A DNA stretch of 64,000 bases from Nitrospirota bacterium (GTDB lineage Bacteria; Nitrospirota; Thermodesulfovibrionia; Thermodesulfovibrionales; SM23-35): contig JACAFF010000039.1 in assembly GCA_013388455.1 (NCBI GenBank), positions 1 through 64,000 on the forward strand, in the 5' to 3' direction. Below the pieces are notes generated by a model, which saw nothing but the letters and a program-made list of their open reading frames with translations, was not told the origin of the DNA and made no database searches. The translations under genes and the position numbers were made by a program. Below, piece by piece: positions 972-50,484 of this stretch; the stretch's first letter is position 1, and each line of letters begins with the position of its first letter.

Positions 972-2207
972 TTATCTTTCTCCTTGCGAAATGAATTTTT
1001 TTAAAACCAGACAGGCATTATTCCCACCGAATGCAAAAGAGTTATTCAAGGCTATTGTTACTTTGTGTTCCCTTGCTTTGTTTGGCACACAATCAATATC
1101 GCATTCAGGATCCGGTGTTTCAAAGTTAATGGTTGGCGGTATAATATCGTTCTTCACTGTCAGAGCACATGAAACTGCTTCAAGTGCTGATGCTGCTCCC
1201 ATAGTATGACCAATCATAGATTTTATTGAGCTCACAGGAATTTCTTTATATCTTGAGCCAAAGACCTCTTTTATTGCTGCAGATTCAGCTTTATCATTTG
1301 TAGGAGTTCCCGTTCCGTGTGCGCTTATGTAATCAACATCCTCTCTCTGAATTCCAGATTCGGACAATGCTCTTAGCATACACCGGACAAGGCCTTCAAC
1401 AGAAGGTTGGGTCATATGTTGTGCATCACAACTCAAACCATAACCTAATATTTCGGCATAAATAGGAGCACCTCTTTCGATAGCGTGCGTTAGAGATTCT
1501 AATACAAGTATGGCTGAACCTTCTGCAACCATCATCCCTTTTCTGTTTTTATCGAATGGTTGGCATTTTTCTGGTGCAACTGCTTTGAATTGATTAAAGC
1601 CTGTAAATGAAATTCTTGAGAAAGGATCCGATGCACCAGCAAATACAATATCAGCTTTTTTCATACGAATTAAATCAAATCCATATCCTATTGCATAATT
1701 TCCTGCTGCGCAGGCTGTTGAGAAAATGTAATTTGGACCATTAAGATTTAGTTCTCTGGCAATCATGGCAGGGGTTGTATGTGTTGGAAGCTGAAAAAAC
1801 AATTCACTTTCAACGGCATCATTTTTTATTAGTCTGTCATTTATTTTTTCAATTGTTTGTATAGAACCAGAAGTAGTACCGATACAAGTACCTGTCTTAA
1901 TGTTAGAGATGATATCATTTGTGAGCTTTGAGTCTTCGATTGCAAATTTCATAGCTGTAAGAGCAAGCTGTGAAGCTCTGCTGTATAAATGAACTTTCTG
2001 TTCCGGAATAAAATTAAAAGGATCGAAATCTTTTATCTCACCTCCGTAGTGAGTGAAATGATTCGATGTATCAAAAGAAAAGACAGGACTTATTCCGGAA
2101 TGGCCTTCAAGGAGGCTGTCCCAAAAATTTTTCCAGCCATTCCCAATTGACGAAATGACACCCAGGCCAGTTATAACTATCCGACGATTGTCAGCATAAT
2201 TCATCAT
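972..2207 (-). CDS. Beta-ketoacyl-ACP synthase, FabF type, catalytically complete
   Basis: 411 residues, the usual length of a KAS II. The thiolase-fold catalytic triad is intact: Cys166 in STACAAGN, His297 in SAHGTGTPTND and His334 in MIGHTMGAAS. It should condense malonyl-ACP with an acyl starter while releasing CO2. The gene lies between a methyltransferase gene (10 bp gap) and the ACP gene (adjacent). A second, catalytically altered ketosynthase-like gene stands two genes upstream, so the two may form a KS/chain-length-factor heterodimer as in type II polyketide systems. The FabF-like fold is clear; membership of a specialised pathway is inferred from context. Confidence 0.93.
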   Translation of the reverse strand: MMNYADNRRIVITGLGVISSIGNGWKNFWDSLLEGHSGISPVFSFDTSNHFTHYGGEIKDFDPFNFIPEQKVHLYSRASQLALTAMKFAIEDSKLTNDIISNIKTGTCIGTTSGSIQTIEKINDRLIKNDAVESELFFQLPTHTTPAMIARELNLNGPNYIFSTACAAGNYAIGYGFDLIRMKKADIVFAGASDPFSRISFTGFNQFKAVAPEKCQPFDKNRKGMMVAEGSAILVLESLTHAIERGAPIYAEILGYGLSCDAQHMTQPSVEGLVRCMLRALSESGIQREDVDYISAHGTGTPTNDKAESAAIKEVFGSRYKEIPVSSIKSMIGHTMGAASALEAVSCALTVKNDIIPPTINFETPDPECDIDCVPNKAREHKVTIALNNSFAFGGNNACLVLKKFISQGER

Positions 2208-2216
2208 AAATATTGG

Positions 2217-3074
2217 CTATTTTTTAAAACACAGAAAACGTCCGTATCTGAGGTAATTATAGTGCGTTTCAATCATAACCTTAAAATATCGAATTGATTT
2301 ATGAAAATATTCCTCTGAAGCACCCTTTAAGTATACCTTAGACATTTGCAGTTCTCTCAGACGAGCACGAAGACCGCGGTCAACAATGTCAGTCGTGTCT
2401 TCGGTATGGAGAACAACAAAGCCAGCCTGTTCCAGTAAACTTTTTGTTTCCTGAATAGTGTGCTGGAACCACACACCTTCAGCATACGTTCCGGGAAAAT
2501 CACCTCCAGCCTCATTCAGGTCACCTCTATCACCCCTTGCCCAGTCGTGGAAGCCCATTATTCCGCCCTTTTTTAAGACTCTATACAGACCTGACAGAGC
2601 GACTTCTTTATTCATCCAATGACAAATTGTTTCGTTGTGAAAAATCTTGTTAAAAGTGTTTTCAGAATAATCTATCTTGTGAACATCTTTAATGTCCCTT
2701 TTTATTAAAAAATCAACCCCCTCAAGAATGTCACAATCGATTGCCTTTTGAATTTGATTTGGATTGATATCGAATCCGATAATCCTGCAGCCATATAATT
2801 TTGCCATGAGTCTTGTTGGGGCGCCATTTCCGCATCCTGCATCCAGTATGAAGTCATCCTTCTCAATCTTCATCATTCTTAGTAGCTTTATTACTTCTGA
2901 TTGCAGGTGATGTGACATGCTTTCAGTATCAAATACCCTTCTATCGAGACTTTTTGGATCAACACCGAAAGACTTATACATTTTTTCAAGTTCTTCTGCT
3001 GTATAAACTGGGAACCCTATATTTTCGGAAAAGCTTTTGATTATATTTTTTGTGACCTGTTCTTCATTTAACAT
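2217..3074 (-). CDS. Class I SAM-dependent methyltransferase
   Basis: 285 residues from the ATG at 3074, chosen because a G-rich ribosome-binding site lies just upstream and because longer starts run deep into the dehydratase gene. The two genes overlap by 11 bp. Motif I, ILDAGCGNGAPTRL (about residues 76-89), with the acidic FDINPNQ motif after it, marks a Rossmann-fold SAM-binding domain. The overall layout resembles the sterol/isoprenoid C-methyltransferase group (HNETICHW motif in mid-domain), but the substrate cannot be read from sequence. Its position inside the ketosynthase cluster suggests it methylates a chain intermediate or product. Confidence 0.85.
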   Translation of the reverse strand: MLNEEQVTKNIIKSFSENIGFPVYTAEELEKMYKSFGVDPKSLDRRVFDTESMSHHLQSEVIKLLRMMKIEKDDFILDAGCGNGAPTRLMAKLYGCRIIGFDINPNQIQKAIDCDILEGVDFLIKRDIKDVHKIDYSENTFNKIFHNETICHWMNKEVALSGLYRVLKKGGIMGFHDWARGDRGDLNEAGGDFPGTYAEGVWFQHTIQETKSLLEQAGFVVLHTEDTTDIVDRGLRARLRELQMSKVYLKGASEEYFHKSIRYFKVMIETHYNYLRYGRFLCFKK

Positions 3075-3531
3075 GACTTTTCCCCCCAAAAACATTCTCT
3101 TTTTTGCTAAATATAAGTTCTGCTTCTGCCACTTTCTTTTCACCAACGAATGCCTCTGCGGTCACGTATGCACCGGTCGATAAAGATTTGATATTCATCA
3201 CCTTAATTTTTAACTGATCCCCTGGAACAACAGGATGATGAAACCGTGCCTTAACAGAACCGAGGAAATAGATAGATTTCTCTTCATTTGGTTCTATCTT
3301 AGTGCCTGCAGCAAAAAGAATTATAGCAGTCTGTGCCATAGCTTCAATTATAGCAACACCTGGCATAATTGCAACTTCAGGAAAATGGCCAAGAAAGAAT
3401 ATGTCATTTCCTGATACATTCTTTACTGCTAAGGCCTCTTTGCCAGGATTAACATCCAAAATCTTATCAATCATGATAAAAGGAAACCGCTGAGGGATAA
3501 GTTTTTTTATCTCTTCAAAATCGAGTTGCAT
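3064..3531 (-). CDS. fabZ: FabZ-type 3-hydroxyacyl-ACP dehydratase
   Basis: 155 residues starting at MQLDFEEIKK. The ATG at 3531 follows the previous gene's TAA by one base and has a GGAGG five bases ahead, which decides the start. It has the hot-dog-fold signature: FLGHFPEVAIMPGVAIIEAM, with catalytic His49 and Glu63, and the FabZ-typical IPQRFPFIMID near the N-terminus. It removes water from 3-hydroxyacyl-ACP to give trans-2-enoyl-ACP. It sits between the degenerate ketosynthase and a methyltransferase gene, so it may be a pathway-specific dehydratase rather than the housekeeping FabZ. Confidence 0.92.
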   Translation of the reverse strand: MQLDFEEIKKLIPQRFPFIMIDKILDVNPGKEALAVKNVSGNDIFFLGHFPEVAIMPGVAIIEAMAQTAIILFAAGTKIEPNEEKSIYFLGSVKARFHHPVVPGDQLKIKVMNIKSLSTGAYVTAEAFVGEKKVAEAELIFSKKENVFGGKSHVK

Positions 3532-3532
3532 T

Positions 3533-4768
3533 TTAGCCTCCATACTTTCCAAGCACGATTGCTGTATTATTACCATAGAAATCAGATGCGGTTAAAAGTA
3601 TATTATTTATTTTTTTACTTATCGCAATATTTGGCACGTAGTCCAGATCGCATTCAGAATCTTTTTCTAAATAATTTACTGTAGGAGGGATGATACCTTT
3701 TTGTAGAGAACAAACTGCTGCAGCAAGAGATAAAGCTCCTGATGCAGAATATGATTCACCTATCATTGATTTGATTGAACTAATAGGTATTTTGTATATC
3801 TGTTTTCCGAAAACCTCCTTAAAAACTTTTGTTTCCATTCTATCAAGTCCTTTAGCGGAGTTTGCGCTTGCAGAAATATAATTTATGTCGTCCGGATAAA
3901 GAGATGCACTTTTCAATGCATTGTTAATTGCGTTAATTAGACCTTTTCCTTTATGACTAAAATTGCTGTCTGATTCAGGATCAAAAGAATTGCCATAACC
4001 AAGCACATAAGCAAGTATTTTCGCGCCTCTTTTTAGTGCATATTCTTCATCTTCAAGAACAAGTACTGAAGCACCTTCAGAAAGAATAAAACCGTTTCTT
4101 CTCGCATCGAACGGGCAACATAGAGGTTCTGACCCATCAGTTCCAGATAAATATCCAAGTTTGTAAAAGGTAAGAAATGTCTCTTCGCATAATTCTTCAA
4201 CTCCTCCGGCAAGCACGATATGCGCTCTACCTAAATTTATAAAATCATAAGCATAAGAGACAGCATCAAGACTGGCACAAAAACCTGTAGATATTGTTGT
4301 ATTGAAGCCTTTTATTTTGAAACGAATTGATACCTGACTTGCTGGGGAATTAATTACTGTATTGGGGAAATGAGATGGATTGACATATTTAGGACCTTCG
4401 ATAAGACTTACACGGTCAAACTGGGATATGCTGTGAAGGCTTCCAAAAGTTGTTCCAATAGAGACACCGGTAGAGTGAGTGTTATCTTCTGAGATGTAAA
4501 GATTTGCATCTTCAATCGCTAACTTAGCTGCAGAGCAGATCAATGTTGTGCTTCTATCAAGAATGCGAAGATCTTTTTTACCGAGGAAAGTGATGGGATC
4601 AAAATCATTAATTTCCCCTGCTATATGAACATTAAAATTAGATGTATCAAAAAGGCTTATTGTTCTAAATCCTTTTTTGCCTTGAACCAGGTTATCCCAG
4701 TAAATGTCTTTCCCAATTCCTATCGGTGAAATAACACCAATACCGGTTATAACAATTTTTTTGTTCAT
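3533..4768 (-). CDS. Ketosynthase-like protein lacking catalytic histidines (chain-length-factor-like)
   Basis: 411 residues, same length and fold as the KAS II at 972-2207. Cys164 is present in STGFCASLD. The first catalytic histidine (HGTGT block) is replaced: the region reads YISASANSAKGLD with Ser301. The second (GHTMGA block) reads MIGESYSASG with Glu338. Without these histidines decarboxylative condensation should fail, so it is more likely a partner subunit like the chain-length factors of type II polyketide and aryl polyene systems. Classical CLFs lose the cysteine; this one keeps it, which is unusual. The next gene follows one base after its stop. Confidence 0.85.
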   Translation of the reverse strand: MNKKIVITGIGVISPIGIGKDIYWDNLVQGKKGFRTISLFDTSNFNVHIAGEINDFDPITFLGKKDLRILDRSTTLICSAAKLAIEDANLYISEDNTHSTGVSIGTTFGSLHSISQFDRVSLIEGPKYVNPSHFPNTVINSPASQVSIRFKIKGFNTTISTGFCASLDAVSYAYDFINLGRAHIVLAGGVEELCEETFLTFYKLGYLSGTDGSEPLCCPFDARRNGFILSEGASVLVLEDEEYALKRGAKILAYVLGYGNSFDPESDSNFSHKGKGLINAINNALKSASLYPDDINYISASANSAKGLDRMETKVFKEVFGKQIYKIPISSIKSMIGESYSASGALSLAAAVCSLQKGIIPPTVNYLEKDSECDLDYVPNIAISKKINNILLTASDFYGNNTAIVLGKYGG

Positions 4769-4880
4769 TCCTTTTTAATTTTATATCATTTAAAATTTAA
4801 TAAAATACTTTAATAAACGATGCTAACTATTTGAATTATAGTATAATTATACATAGCTGAATTAACCCCTACAAAAAAAG

Positions 4881-6161
4881 TTATTTTCTTATCAAATAAA
4901 ATACAATCAAACCAGAGTTATCACGGTTTTCTGATATTGCAGAATCAGGTATATTAGCCATGGTCAATATATTCCTGAATTCTTCTTCATTCCTCTGGAG
5001 GAAGCCGTCCCAGTCAACAATCCAGTGATAATCCGGGCCAATATAACGATTTGCATCCTTAAAAGCTGCTATTAAAATGCCACCTGAATTAAGAAGTTGA
5101 TACAGGGAATTTAATATTCTTATTAGAAATTCGGTTTCAAGATAATCAAAAAATCCAACACTGTAAATAATATCCTGCTTCCCGAATTCTTTCATGTTTA
5201 ATTCGTGGTCGAACATTCTGAGTGCATTATATTTTCGAAGGACAACCTGTTTTGATGATAGAGGAGAAATGTTTGTATATGAGAGACGATTGGCAGCAAA
5301 AGCAAGAGCATCGTTATCAAGATCAATGCATGTAAATTTAGCAGATGAACTTTCGATTTCGGAAGATAATTCAAACACTTCTCTGCAAGACCCGCACGCT
5401 ATATTTAATACAGCGGGATTATTTCTAATTAGTAGTTCATCTTTCAATATTGTTCTTAGTTTTTCTATTCTGTTTCTTACTGCTACAGTCAATGGAGCCC
5501 TTAGAAAAGCTAAATCCAGATAATAGCCAAGTCCTTGGGATAACGGGGTATTCCTGTACATGCCTTCGAGCATTTTATAGTCACCTTGATAGCCCTGAGG
5601 CCATGTTCGTGCACGGTTCATGAAATAGCTTTTTGATATTATATGGTTTGTTTTTTCACGGAATCTTATTTGAGCATCACGTATAATATTTCTGTCTTTA
5701 ACTTTTTCTTCAAAGTGTATATATGCATTTCTTATCTCTGAAATAGCATCCTCTATAGCCTGTAAAATGTCCTGAGGATTTTCATTTTTGTTTTGACATT
5801 TTTTTTCTATTTCTTCGAGTCGTTTGTTGAATAATTCTGTCGCTTCATCGATAATATCAACATGTTTCCCGTCCAGTTCAACTCCTACCCGGTAGCCATT
5901 ATCAGACTTAATACAATACTTTACAAAACCAGCTTTATCTTCTATGCCCTCATTAAACCAGATAATATGCCCCGGTTCTAACGGATAGTCTGTGTAAATA
6001 CCTAAACCATTTTCACTGATATCAAAAGACCTGCCATGTGCCTTTAGCCATTTGCGTTTCCTGTCAATAATTGAGCTGAAAGAATAATCAATAGATTGAG
6101 TAAACGGTTTTCTTTCAAATCTCCTTACCCTTTCATACTGAGCTTTCAATACATTTTCCAT
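4881..6161 (-). CDS. PilZ domain fused to a PhcB-like SAM methyltransferase
   Basis: 426 residues. The N-terminal ~110 residues form a PilZ domain with the c-di-GMP signature: R13-x3-R17 and DISENG (Asp47, Ser49, Gly52). A charged helical linker follows. The C-terminal ~200 residues are a class I methyltransferase with NIACGSCREVFEL (253-265) and FTCIDLDNDAL (276-286), plus IIYSVGFFDYL and the GYQGDY segment. These blocks resemble the PhcB family, which makes fatty-acid methyl-ester quorum signals in Ralstonia; this is recognition by eye. It is first gene of the minus-strand locus, with a good AGGAGG before the ATG. The fusion suggests c-di-GMP-controlled methyl transfer. Confidence 0.82.
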   Translation of the reverse strand: MENVLKAQYERVRRFERKPFTQSIDYSFSSIIDRKRKWLKAHGRSFDISENGLGIYTDYPLEPGHIIWFNEGIEDKAGFVKYCIKSDNGYRVGVELDGKHVDIIDEATELFNKRLEEIEKKCQNKNENPQDILQAIEDAISEIRNAYIHFEEKVKDRNIIRDAQIRFREKTNHIISKSYFMNRARTWPQGYQGDYKMLEGMYRNTPLSQGLGYYLDLAFLRAPLTVAVRNRIEKLRTILKDELLIRNNPAVLNIACGSCREVFELSSEIESSSAKFTCIDLDNDALAFAANRLSYTNISPLSSKQVVLRKYNALRMFDHELNMKEFGKQDIIYSVGFFDYLETEFLIRILNSLYQLLNSGGILIAAFKDANRYIGPDYHWIVDWDGFLQRNEEEFRNILTMANIPDSAISENRDNSGLIVFYLIRK

Positions 6162-11975: not shown

Positions 11976-14708
11976 TTAAACACTAAAATTTTTAATTGCC
12001 TCTATCTTAACTGCACAAACTTTCAATTCTGGTATTTTTGCGATTGGGTCGAGAGCATTATTTGTGAGAATATTTGCCGCTGCTTCTTTGAAATGGAAGG
12101 GTATAAAAACAGTGCCTTTTAATAAGCGATCTGTTGTATAAACTCTGATATCAATATGTCCCCTTCTTGAAGACACTCTTACCATGTCTCCATCAAATAC
12201 GCCAATATTGGAAGCATCTTCAGGATGTATTTCTATGTACGCATCGGGAGATATAGCATTAATAGCGTGGATCTTTCTTGTCATAGTACCTGTATGATAC
12301 TGGAAAAGCTGTCTTCCTGTCGATAGATAGAACGGATATTCTTCATCAGGTAGTTCTTCAGATGGTCTATAATTAACAATTGTAAAAACAGCTTTCCCTC
12401 TCGGAAAACCACCTTTGAACAGATATGGTGTTCCTGGATGATCAAGAGTAGGGCATGGCCATTGAATGCCTTTTTGGGAAATTCTTCCATATGTTATACC
12501 AGCTAAAGCTGGCCAGAGTTCTGCTGCTTCACGAAAGACTTCTTCAATGATTGTATAGTTCATTTTATATCCAAATCTCTTAGCTAATTCTATAATAATG
12601 TTTGCATCATCTTTAGATTCACCCGGCGGATCAATTGCCTTTCTGACGCGTTGAACCCTTCTCTCTGTATTCGTAAATGTCCCGTCTTTTTCCGCAAAAC
12701 ATGCAGATGGAAGTATGACATCAGCAAGAGCTGCCGTTTCGGTCATAAATATGTCCTGGACAACAAGAAAGTCAAGATTATTTAACGCCTTCAATGTATG
12801 ATTCAAATCAGGGTCGCTAAGAGCTGGATTTTCTCCCATGATATACATCGCTTTTATATTTCCGAGAATCGCTTCTTTTATCATCTCAGTAGCAGTAAGG
12901 CCGACCTTGCCGGAAAGATTTACTCCCCATGCTTTTTCAAATTTAGTTCTTACACCATGGATATTTACTCTTTGGTAACCTGTATAAAAATCAGGGATAC
13001 AACCCATATCGGTTGCTCCCTGGACATTATTCTGACCTCTGAGTGGATTGACGCCTGTGCTTTCTCTTCCAAGATTACCGCTTATTAAAGCAAGATTAGC
13101 TATTGTAAATACATTTTCTGTTCCATGGGTGTGTTGGGTAATCCCCATTGTATAATAAATTCCAGGCCTCACTGCATTTCCATAAAGAAGTGCTGCCTTT
13201 ATAATTTTTTCTTTAGGAACTCCTGTGATTCTTTCGCCTTCTTCAGGAGTAAAATGATTAAGAGATTCTTTAAAACTTTCGAAACCATCAGTCCGTTCTT
13301 CTATGAACTTTTTATCAATTAAATCTTCTTTAATCATTACGTGCATTATTGAATTTATAAGCGCAACATCAGTTCCAGGCCTATGCTGTAACCATAATGT
13401 TGAGAATCTTACAAGGTCGATTTTTCTTGGGTCAGCAACAATAAGTTCCGCTCCTTTTCTAATAGCCTTCTTCATTTTCAGTCCTATAATTGGATGTGTT
13501 TCAGTTGTGTTCGAACCTATAACAAAGATTACATCATGACCCTCAATTTCAGGAATCGAATTTGTCATTGCTCCTGAACCAAATACAGTTGCCAGCCCGG
13601 CAACTGAGGAACTATGTCAGTACCTCGCACAATGGTCAACATTATTCGTTCCGATTACAGCTCTCATGAACTTCTGAAATAGGTAGTTTTCTTCATTTGT
13701 GCATCGGGCTGAAGCGAGGCCACCTATTGCGTCAGGCCCATAATTCTCTTTTATCTCTCTAAGCCTTTTTGAAACGTATTCGAAGGCTTCGTCCCATGAT
13801 ACCTCTCTAAAGAGTGAGGTGTGAGTTGTGAAATGTGAGGTGATTACCTCCCCATTCGGATTCTCTTTTGGGGCTATTCTAATGAGAGGTTTTGTAAGTC
13901 TTTCAGGACTGTTGACAAACCCATAGCCAAATCTACCCTTTGCACAGAGCCATCCCTCATTAATAGTGTTTTCTCTTGATGATACCCTTATGATTTCATT
14001 CCTGTGGATATACAAAGTTATATTGCATCCACATCCACAATAAGGACATATGGTTTCAACTTCTTTAAAATTCTGTCTTCCTTTGTTAGCCCACATCTTA
14101 CCGGTAAGGGCTCCTGTAGGACATACTGCAACACATTGACCACAAAATTCACACTTAAGATCTTTATCAAACGGAGGAGCAATTTTTGTATTGAGCCCTC
14201 TATATGCAAAATCAATAGCGCTTACCCCCTGAACTTCTTCACAAATACGGACACACTGCCCGCACAGAATGCATTTTTCCATATCTCTTTCTATAAAAGG
14301 ATTTGCATCCCTTTTTGTATAAATTCTTCTTTGACCCTCAAATCTGTTTTCTCTTAAACCATAAAAATAAGCTAATTCCTGAAGTTTACAATCTCCTGAC
14401 CTTTCACACACCATGCAATCTTTAGGATGGTCAGAAAGGATTAATTCAAGAGTTGTTTTTCTTAATTTTTCAAGTGTAGGGCTTGTTGTTTTAACTATCA
14501 TGCCATCTTTTGCAAAAGTTGTGCAGGAGGCAACTGGTTTAGCGATTCCATTTACCTCGACTAAACAAAGTCTACATCCCCCATAAGGCGAAAGGGCAGG
14601 ATGGTGACACAGAGTAGGAATAGGAATATCGAGTTTCCTTATAGCATCGAGAATTGTGGAAAGTTTCCTCACAGTTACTGTTTTGCCGTCTATTTTTAGT
14701 GTTACCAT
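11976..14708 (-). CDS. fdhA: NAD-linked formate dehydrogenase catalytic subunit, selenoprotein
   Basis: One 910-residue gene read through an in-frame UGA at 13617-13619 (residue 364). Sequence before the UGA ends NNVDHCARY and after it continues HSSSVAGLATVFGSGAM, the exact family context in which Sec (or Cys) binds molybdenum/tungsten. N-terminus: [2Fe-2S] ferredoxin domain (Cys34, Cys45, Cys48, Cys62), then His/Cys and 2x[4Fe-4S] clusters, then the molybdopterin domain starting with ICPYCGCGCN. It oxidises formate (or reduces CO2). No Tat signal, so it is cytoplasmic. NuoF- and NuoE-like subunits upstream complete an NAD-reducing, possibly electron-bifurcating complex. Confidence 0.95.
13586..13606 (-). 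promoter_or_regulatory. Bacterial SECIS hairpin of fdhA
   Basis: Read on the minus strand, ten bases after the UGA comes a perfect 8-bp stem (CAGTTGCC with GGCAACTG) closing a five-base G-rich loop GGGCT. The loop begins 18 bases after the UGA, matching the spacing in E. coli fdhF. This is the expected position for SelB recruitment. Confidence 0.85.
13617..13619 (-). other. Selenocysteine UGA codon of fdhA
   Basis: The codon TGA (minus strand) interrupts an otherwise continuous, family-conserved reading frame between CARY and HSSSV. Upstream and downstream halves each match formate dehydrogenase and have no independent ribosome-binding site between them. Confidence 0.93.
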
Positions 14709-49955: not shown

Positions 49956-50166
49956 TGTATCTCCTCTATTTAAGTCATAATTTTAAATGTTCTAAAAGAA
50001 AATAATCAATTACTACTCCCTCATAGTGAATAATCTCTGACAATTTATTAAAATATTAATATATCCATAAAAAGGTAATTTAAGCTTGTCCCATTTATTA
50101 TTTAAGAAAACAATCTTCGAAAAAATTCATTTTATCACAAAAAACTTTTGAATAGGAAAGGAGGAA

Positions 50167-50484
50167 ATGCGAGTGAACATTCTTTTTATTATTTCTTCAG
50201 ATGATGCCGAAACAGTTTACAATGCTATGCGTTTAGCCAATATATCCGTTGAAAAAGGTGATGAAGTAAACGTATTTATGCTTGGGAAAGGGGTTCTTTT
50301 TGAGCAGATCAATAGCGAGCAGTTCAATGTGAAGGAACAGATTGACAAGTTTAAAGGCAATATGTATGTCTGAGGTGTATGCATGAAGGCCCACGGTCTT
50401 GTGGAAACAAAAGTTTGTCCTATCGGATATATGAACGACCTTTATGAATCAGTCAAAGAGGCAGATAAGGTGTTAACTTTTTAA
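50167..50484 (+). CDS. DsrE-family selenoprotein (UGA at residue 69)
   Basis: A 105-residue frame is obtained if the TGA at 50371-50373 is read as selenocysteine. The first 68 residues (MRVNILFIISSDDAETVYNA..., MRLANISVEKGDEVNVFMLG) are a DsrE-like alpha/beta domain that would be too short alone. The residues after the TGA, GVCMKAHGLVETKVCP and MNDLYESVKEADKVLTF, are the expected second half. In relatives the TGA position is Cys in a C-G-x-C motif, here Sec-Gly-Val-Cys. AAAGGAGG precedes the ATG. The genome must have Sec machinery because fdhA needs it. Probably a redox or sulfur-transfer protein. Confidence 0.8.
50371..50373 (+). other. Predicted selenocysteine UGA codon
   Basis: TGA interrupts a continuous DsrE-like frame exactly where the family carries the first cysteine of a CGxC motif; a TAA ends the frame 37 codons later. 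Confidence 0.75.
50391..50404 (+). promoter_or_regulatory. Candidate SECIS hairpin
   Basis: CCAC and GTGG (extendable by one G-U pair) close a loop GGTCTT, which contains the GGUCU loop of E. coli fdhF SECIS. The loop starts about 21 bases after the UGA, within the bacterial range. The stem is short, so this alone is modest evidence. Confidence 0.55.

Follow-up and report, generated by a model that had tools for sequence, protein, structure and literature searches.

The window analyzed here, a 64,000-nucleotide stretch of a Nitrospirota genome, contains a gene of the DsrE family that is interrupted by a single in-frame TGA and preceded by a GGAGG ribosome-binding site (Table 1). Read through the TGA, the gene encodes the protein MRVNILFIISSDDAETVYNAMRLANISVEKGDEVNVFMLGKGVLFEQINSEQFNVKEQIDKFKGNMYV-U-GVCMKAHGLVETKVCPIGYMNDLYESVKEADKVLTF, where U is the codon at 50371–50373, and ends with a TAA stop at 50482–50484. 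Re-reading the sequence reproduced exactly the coordinates, the TGA, the Sec-Gly-Val-Cys context and the stop codon given in the original prediction. The same frame does continue past the TGA to the TAA, but over 36 sense codons and the stop rather than the 37 codons counted there. The TGA is codon 69 of 105 when counting from the ATG at 50167, and this numbering is used throughout for Sec69, Cys72 and Cys84. The GTG at 50173 is the likelier start, because relatives begin there and it lies 8 nt after the GGAGG; it opens a frame of 103 codons and would yield a 103-residue protein with the selenocysteine as Sec67.

Table 1. Features of the Sec-DsrE locus and a second selenoprotein gene in the window.
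Feature	Position	Strand	Evidence
GGAGG ribosome-binding site	50160–50164	+	Sequence; 8 nt before GTG 50173, 2 nt before ATG 50167
DsrE-family selenoprotein gene	50167–50484	+	PF02635, 44.2 bits with TGA read through; relatives start at the 50173 codon
In-frame UGA, selenocysteine codon, residue 69	50371–50373	+	Cys in stop-free homologues
Cys72 codon, second residue of UxxC motif	50380–50382	+	Cys in 52/52 clade-A Sec forms, 105/115 overall
Bacterial SECIS apical hairpin (putative)	50389–50406	+	Arms 50389–50394 and 50401–50406, loop GGTCTT 50395–50400; covariation over 21 Sec homologues
Cys84 codon, third conserved Cys (Cys-Pro)	50416–50418	+	52/52 clade-A Sec forms; absent in Sec groups B and C
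Formate dehydrogenase alpha subunit fdhA, in-frame TGA at codon 364	11976–14708	-	Another selenoprotein gene in the window; independently points to Sec use

With the TGA read through, the match to PF02635 (DsrE) spans the whole length of the protein and clears the cut-off of 22.7 bits, and a profile search of the whole genome found the gene with one internal TGA at 34.7 bits. The window copy has no sign of decay. We conclude that 50167–50484 almost certainly encodes a selenoprotein. Under the standard code this gene would end after codon 68, whereas its product would be full-length and probably located in the cytoplasm.

Selenocysteine machinery is present in the same genome. It includes a tRNA-Sec (73.2 bits, also found by ARAGORN), selA about 6 kb from the tRNA-Sec gene (recognized by its sequence and not by profile search), selB (364 bits) and a selD that itself carries an in-frame TGA. 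The use of fdhA as a sign of Sec decoding, made in the original prediction, holds up, as this gene and its TGA were confirmed on the reverse strand of the window. Across genomes, selB was present in 21 of 21 tested that have the Sec form of DsrE (seven Nitrospirota and 14/14 Desulfobacterota) and in none of the six found through the stop-free form, all of which lie outside the order. Within the order, most genomes without the Sec form have selB as well, so the dependence runs in one direction only, with the Sec form requiring selB. The Sec-containing selD, matched over its full length, lies at G000:C24:24471, and at L130 5923–6900 (G000:C3, about 118900–120050) a yedF gene adjoins an apparently broken second selD, with fragments in two frames.

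Conservation of the UGA codon and of a downstream hairpin

Seven Nitrospirota genomes (G000, G002, G003, G008, G011, G013 and G106) share the TGA at this codon. Four genomes of the same family (G011, G002, G003 and G008) encode the full protein with 78–87% identity, G013, also of this family, has a 5'-damaged copy, and G106 belongs to another family of the same order. In G013 (L008/L063, G013:C74, about 23390), an ArsR-type gene begins and then continues directly into the Sec-DsrE frame, which is truncated at its 5' end; the cause is either a deletion or an assembly join. A scan of genome contigs also found TGA forms in the Desulfobacterales, Syntrophobacterales, Thermodesulfobacterium and Desulfobulbaceae of the Desulfobacterota. 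In this phylum TGA lies at the same codon in about 48 loci (14 plus about 34), of which the extra ~30 came from a sample of 395 genomes of the phylum. The UGA is therefore shared with other genera and with another phylum, the outcome of a check that the original prediction had proposed. A scan of viral contigs found no relative of Sec-DsrE.

The relatives next in rank belong to many phyla and include archaea; their codon at the Sec position is TGC or TGT, within a CGTC motif, and all 42 aligned stop-free homologues have Cys at the UGA column. In the full alignment of 115 sequences, which leaves out L200b (a frameshifted tail, mislabelled as Sec), Cys or Sec occupies this column in every row, in line with the proposal that the TGA falls where relatives have Cys. 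The second Cys is lost in 10 of the 115 and the third in 21, while the window's own subgroup retains Sec, Cys72 and Cys84 in 52/52 sequences. One stop-free branch from Nitrospirota (L046, L047, L048) has gone from CGKC to CQKS, keeping the motif's first Cys alone. Between the window gene and five Nitrospirota relatives, most differences downstream of the TGA are at third codon positions, just as upstream of it; together with the undecayed state of the window copy, this speaks against the pseudogene that had been named as a possible refutation.

A hairpin with a GGTCT loop had been noted about 21 bases after the UGA. Its position and loop stood, as the loop starts 21 nt after the UGA with GG in the apical loop, and the helix covaries across the group; we take the GGUCU loop to be the same as that of E. 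coli fdhF. The window copy itself is weak: only the inner four pairs form (4 bp), its free MFE is no better than that of shuffles (z -0.07), and its lowest-energy fold is a different one. The support for this hairpin is thus comparative and not thermodynamic. Downstream of the UGA, 21 Sec homologues align without gaps and contain a six-pair helix (columns 19–24 with 31–36) around a six-base loop beginning with GG. Across these homologues 85.7% of helix cells are paired (73.8% in shuffles), 17 cells carry double changes (5.4 in shuffles), and the covariation score is 0.416, compared with 0.210 for shuffled alignments; 0 of 500 shuffles scored as high, and slid registers scored far lower. The helix positions pair at 3 to 6 of 6 in Sec forms but nearly always at 1 to 3 in stop-free (Cys) homologues, from which the hairpin is nearly absent. 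All but one of the sequences in two further Sec groups, B and C, likewise have a GG hairpin at this distance after the UGA. We propose that SelB and tRNA-Sec would decode the UGA as Sec, with the hairpin acting as the SECIS.

Sec groups and gene neighborhoods

In a first tree, the window's subgroup (A, with UGVC and a third Cys) formed one clade with 100/98 support and no Cys member. A larger tree contained the two further Sec groups: group B, with UGKC or UGKL/UGKS and without the third Cys (L182–L201, L209, L210 and L214), and group C, with UKK and placed near a Cys paralogue (L186 and L200). The starred branches of the larger tree, which rests on about 106 columns and has weak deep forks, force at least four label changes; one is due to the mislabelled L200b, leaving at least three changes by gain or by gain and loss. 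Although the second or third Cys is missing from groups B and C and from some stop-free forms, the first position is always kept, a pattern that fits a single-chalcogen chemistry with optional resolving thiols. The larger tree groups the Nitrospirota members as a single clade (100/97) within the Desulfobacterota, a placement which suggests that their Sec-DsrE was transferred from that phylum. Tandem stop-free (CGTC) and Sec DsrE genes occur at L067 3656–4318 and in L205, the L067 pair being followed by an SQR-like flavoprotein gene.

The window gene stands alone between a divergent ftsY and asd, neighbors that give no functional hint. With FtsY and Asd at these places, we found at the window locus neither adjacent dsrF and dsrH (the DsrEFH complex) nor yedE-like and tusA neighbors, which would mark the YTD cluster (yedE-dsrE-tusA) of sulfur disproportionators (PMC8780430). 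There was no match to TsoA, TsoX or TsoY within the window. Among the Nitrospirota Sec forms, no neighborhood is conserved except between two close relatives, and TsoA was found neither in the window's genome nor in the other six Nitrospirota Sec-form genomes (0/11 Nitrospirota genomes tested).

In Desulfobacterota, genes for TsoA, TsoX, TsoY and an ArsR regulator recur near Sec-DsrE genes of the window's subgroup. The Tso proteins were identified by NCBIfam, TsoY by a fragment below the whole-protein cut-off only. TsoA lies within about 2.3 kb of Sec-DsrE in ten genomes (loci L233, L222, L224, L216, L221, L226, L227, L234, L064 and L067), with TsoX and/or TsoY in several; at L233 5252–6563 the order is TsoA, TsoX, DsrE, TsoY with gaps of 20 to 50 bases. 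TsoX, an HSGNPxU selenoprotein, adjoins Sec-DsrE in three genomes. By genome, TsoA is present in 13/43 Desulfobacterota with the Sec form as against 1/26 without it. According to PMC13188914, Tso comprises three selenoprotein genes, next to which additional selenoprotein genes of otherwise unrelated kinds are found; that description does not name DsrE.

Of 20 Desulfobacterota loci examined, 11 have an ArsR-type regulator close to Sec-DsrE, and in six of these 11 TsoA is present too. Linkage of Sec-DsrE to one single ArsR regulator was rejected, as several ArsR types were found. In four Desulfobulbaceae-type loci, Sec-DsrE is followed by an SQR-like Pyr_redox_2 protein. The Desulfobacterota neighbors (Tso, ArsR and SQR-like) are consistent with redox work on sulfur or thiols, but with metal(loid) defence as well. 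The Tso and SQR-like links favor work in sulfur/selenium redox, without extending to the window's own genome. In L217 and L218 (about 1800–5830), a group-A Sec-DsrE gene is divergent from an ArsR gene in an arsenic-type island with a permease, an ACR3-like transporter and a redox-active-disulfide thioredoxin-like gene, all named by eye.

Fold, known relatives and proposed chemistry

A structure model with Sec modelled as Cys (pLDDT 93.6, pTM 0.86) puts the Sec where strand 4 passes into the next helix, at the helix start. Its best structural matches are DsrE/DsrF-like, YchN, TusBCD and DsrEFH chains (Z 12.4–16.2), and the next match outside the family scores 8.5. The modelled fold is that of DsrE, YchN and TusD: it is shared over all 103 residues with YchN and DsrE-DsrF-like structures (1jx7, 3mc3) and with TusBCD/DsrEFH (Z 13–16). 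In a profile alignment, a Cys of the YchN CKTC motif stands at the Sec column, so that YchN has Cys where the window protein has Sec. TusD and DsrE act in hetero-hexamers with TusC/B or DsrF/H, whereas genes for such partners are not next to the window gene. The protein also weakly resembles YedF (TIGR03527), which has a C-terminal DsrE-like domain with CGxC, but lacks the SirA/TusA-like N-terminal domain and reaches 20 bits against a cut-off of 110. The genome's one other PF02635 match lies inside a YedF, a protein tied to selenium metabolism (PMC5322559).

DsrE-like UxxC selenoproteins were first reported in 2005, as two sequences in a Sargasso Sea survey (PMC1088965), and one was described in Desulfovibrio vulgaris in 2006 (PMC1794560). 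In 2026, DsrE-like selenoproteins, a largely uncharacterized group, were 'predicted with high confidence' and listed with WP_014524487.1 (PMC13188914). The belief that such proteins had already appeared in computational surveys was therefore correct, and the window protein is a further member of a family known since 2005. As far as these accounts describe it, the published family has PF02635, Sec in UxxC, a predicted SECIS and an uncharacterized function in common with the window protein; the published members are marine metagenomic or from Desulfovibrio, whereas ours is from Nitrospirota, a comparison made by description and not by subgroup (A or B). New, as far as we found, are the Nitrospirota branch, the three separate Sec groups in DsrE, and the operon-like Tso linkage in ten Desulfobacterota genomes. 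DsrE-like selenoproteins are thereby extended to Nitrospirota, in a set of about 55 sequences with covarying SECIS, and the Tso link and repeated Sec at one invariant DsrE position provide grounds for a testable proposal that selenium takes part in sulfur trafficking.

In DsrE and TusD, the Cys at this place carries persulfide sulfur. From this we infer a perselenide or selenenyl-sulfide cycle for Sec69, in which the resolving thiols could be Cys72 and Cys84; by analogy, the carrier chemistry of this kind suggested in the original prediction is plausible. Sec69 would attack or accept sulfane sulfur from a persulfide or polysulfide to form Sec-S(n)-, which Cys72 of the UxxC motif could resolve as a selenenyl sulfide, Cys84 being a further candidate. 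Sulfide would then be released or the sulfur handed on, the host being an organism that has dissimilatory sulfite reductase. The genome carries dsrA (585 bits), which makes sulfite reduction a likely setting; co-occurrence of dsrA with the Sec form is uninformative, as nearly all tested genomes of the order have dsrA.

Joining the computed reading frame, UGA conservation, SECIS covariation, Sec machinery and fold to an inferred chemistry, with its partners and direction, we hold with moderate confidence that the gene encodes a DsrE-fold selenoprotein that receives Sec via SelB and the SECIS and acts as a sulfane-sulfur (perselenide) carrier or reductase. More speculatively, subgroup A might be a selenium-based sulfur relay of sulfate- or sulfite-reducing anaerobes, with Tso as its partner in Desulfobacterota and carried to Nitrospirota as a stand-alone gene, Sec having been adopted at least three times because perselenide chemistry was advantageous. 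We offer this broader scenario tentatively.

Alternative explanations

Instead of carrying sulfur, Sec-DsrE could serve as a broad-range reductase (thiol/selenol-disulfide or peroxide) or as a protein that binds or reduces metal(loid)s, an alternative that we consider rather unlikely. UxxC is a redox motif that would here work as in thioredoxin, and DsrE-like proteins are listed among thiol-dependent redox selenoproteins (PMC1088965). The ArsR genes at 11/20 Desulfobacterota loci, some accompanied by a permease and further arsenic-type genes, and the adjoining TsoX in three genomes could signal stress defence. However, the window copy has no ArsR or Tso neighbors, some members of Sec groups B and C do without the motif's second Cys, and the fold is that of a sulfur carrier and not of thioredoxin.

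Sulfane-sulfur carriage, the reading we prefer, also differs from a role in which Sec-DsrE carries selenium, as a selenium donor towards SelD, much as could be proposed for YedF. The weak match (20 bits) to the C-terminal part of TIGR03527 and the co-occurrence of selB in every Sec-form genome tested are consistent with such a donor. The genome, however, has its own true YedF elsewhere, and stop-free homologues live in genomes without selB, which indicates that the fold does not need selenium. We judge this role improbable.

Two further explanations would deny that a DsrE-fold selenoprotein is made. If the TGA were a true stop, the locus would be a pseudogene, the result of a sequencing error, or the source of a 68-residue product. 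The 68-codon frame up to the TGA is indeed free-standing, the G013 copy is 5'-damaged, and two Desulfobacterota copies (L211 and L212) look decayed. Yet more than 50 loci share the position of the TGA, with the downstream frame intact and a covarying SECIS, and the differences that follow it keep their third-position bias. We therefore regard a true stop as very improbable for the window gene and, as judged from sequence conservation, refuted for the group. Sequencing error and pseudogene, like a change of code, are rejected as readings of the TGA. For UGA being read as Trp or Gly in an altered code, which we consider extremely improbable, there is the open frame past the TGA and nothing more, whereas tRNA-Sec and selABD are present, homologues carry Cys and not Trp or Gly at the column, and UGA terminates other genes of the window and, in L050 and L051, even the DsrE gene.
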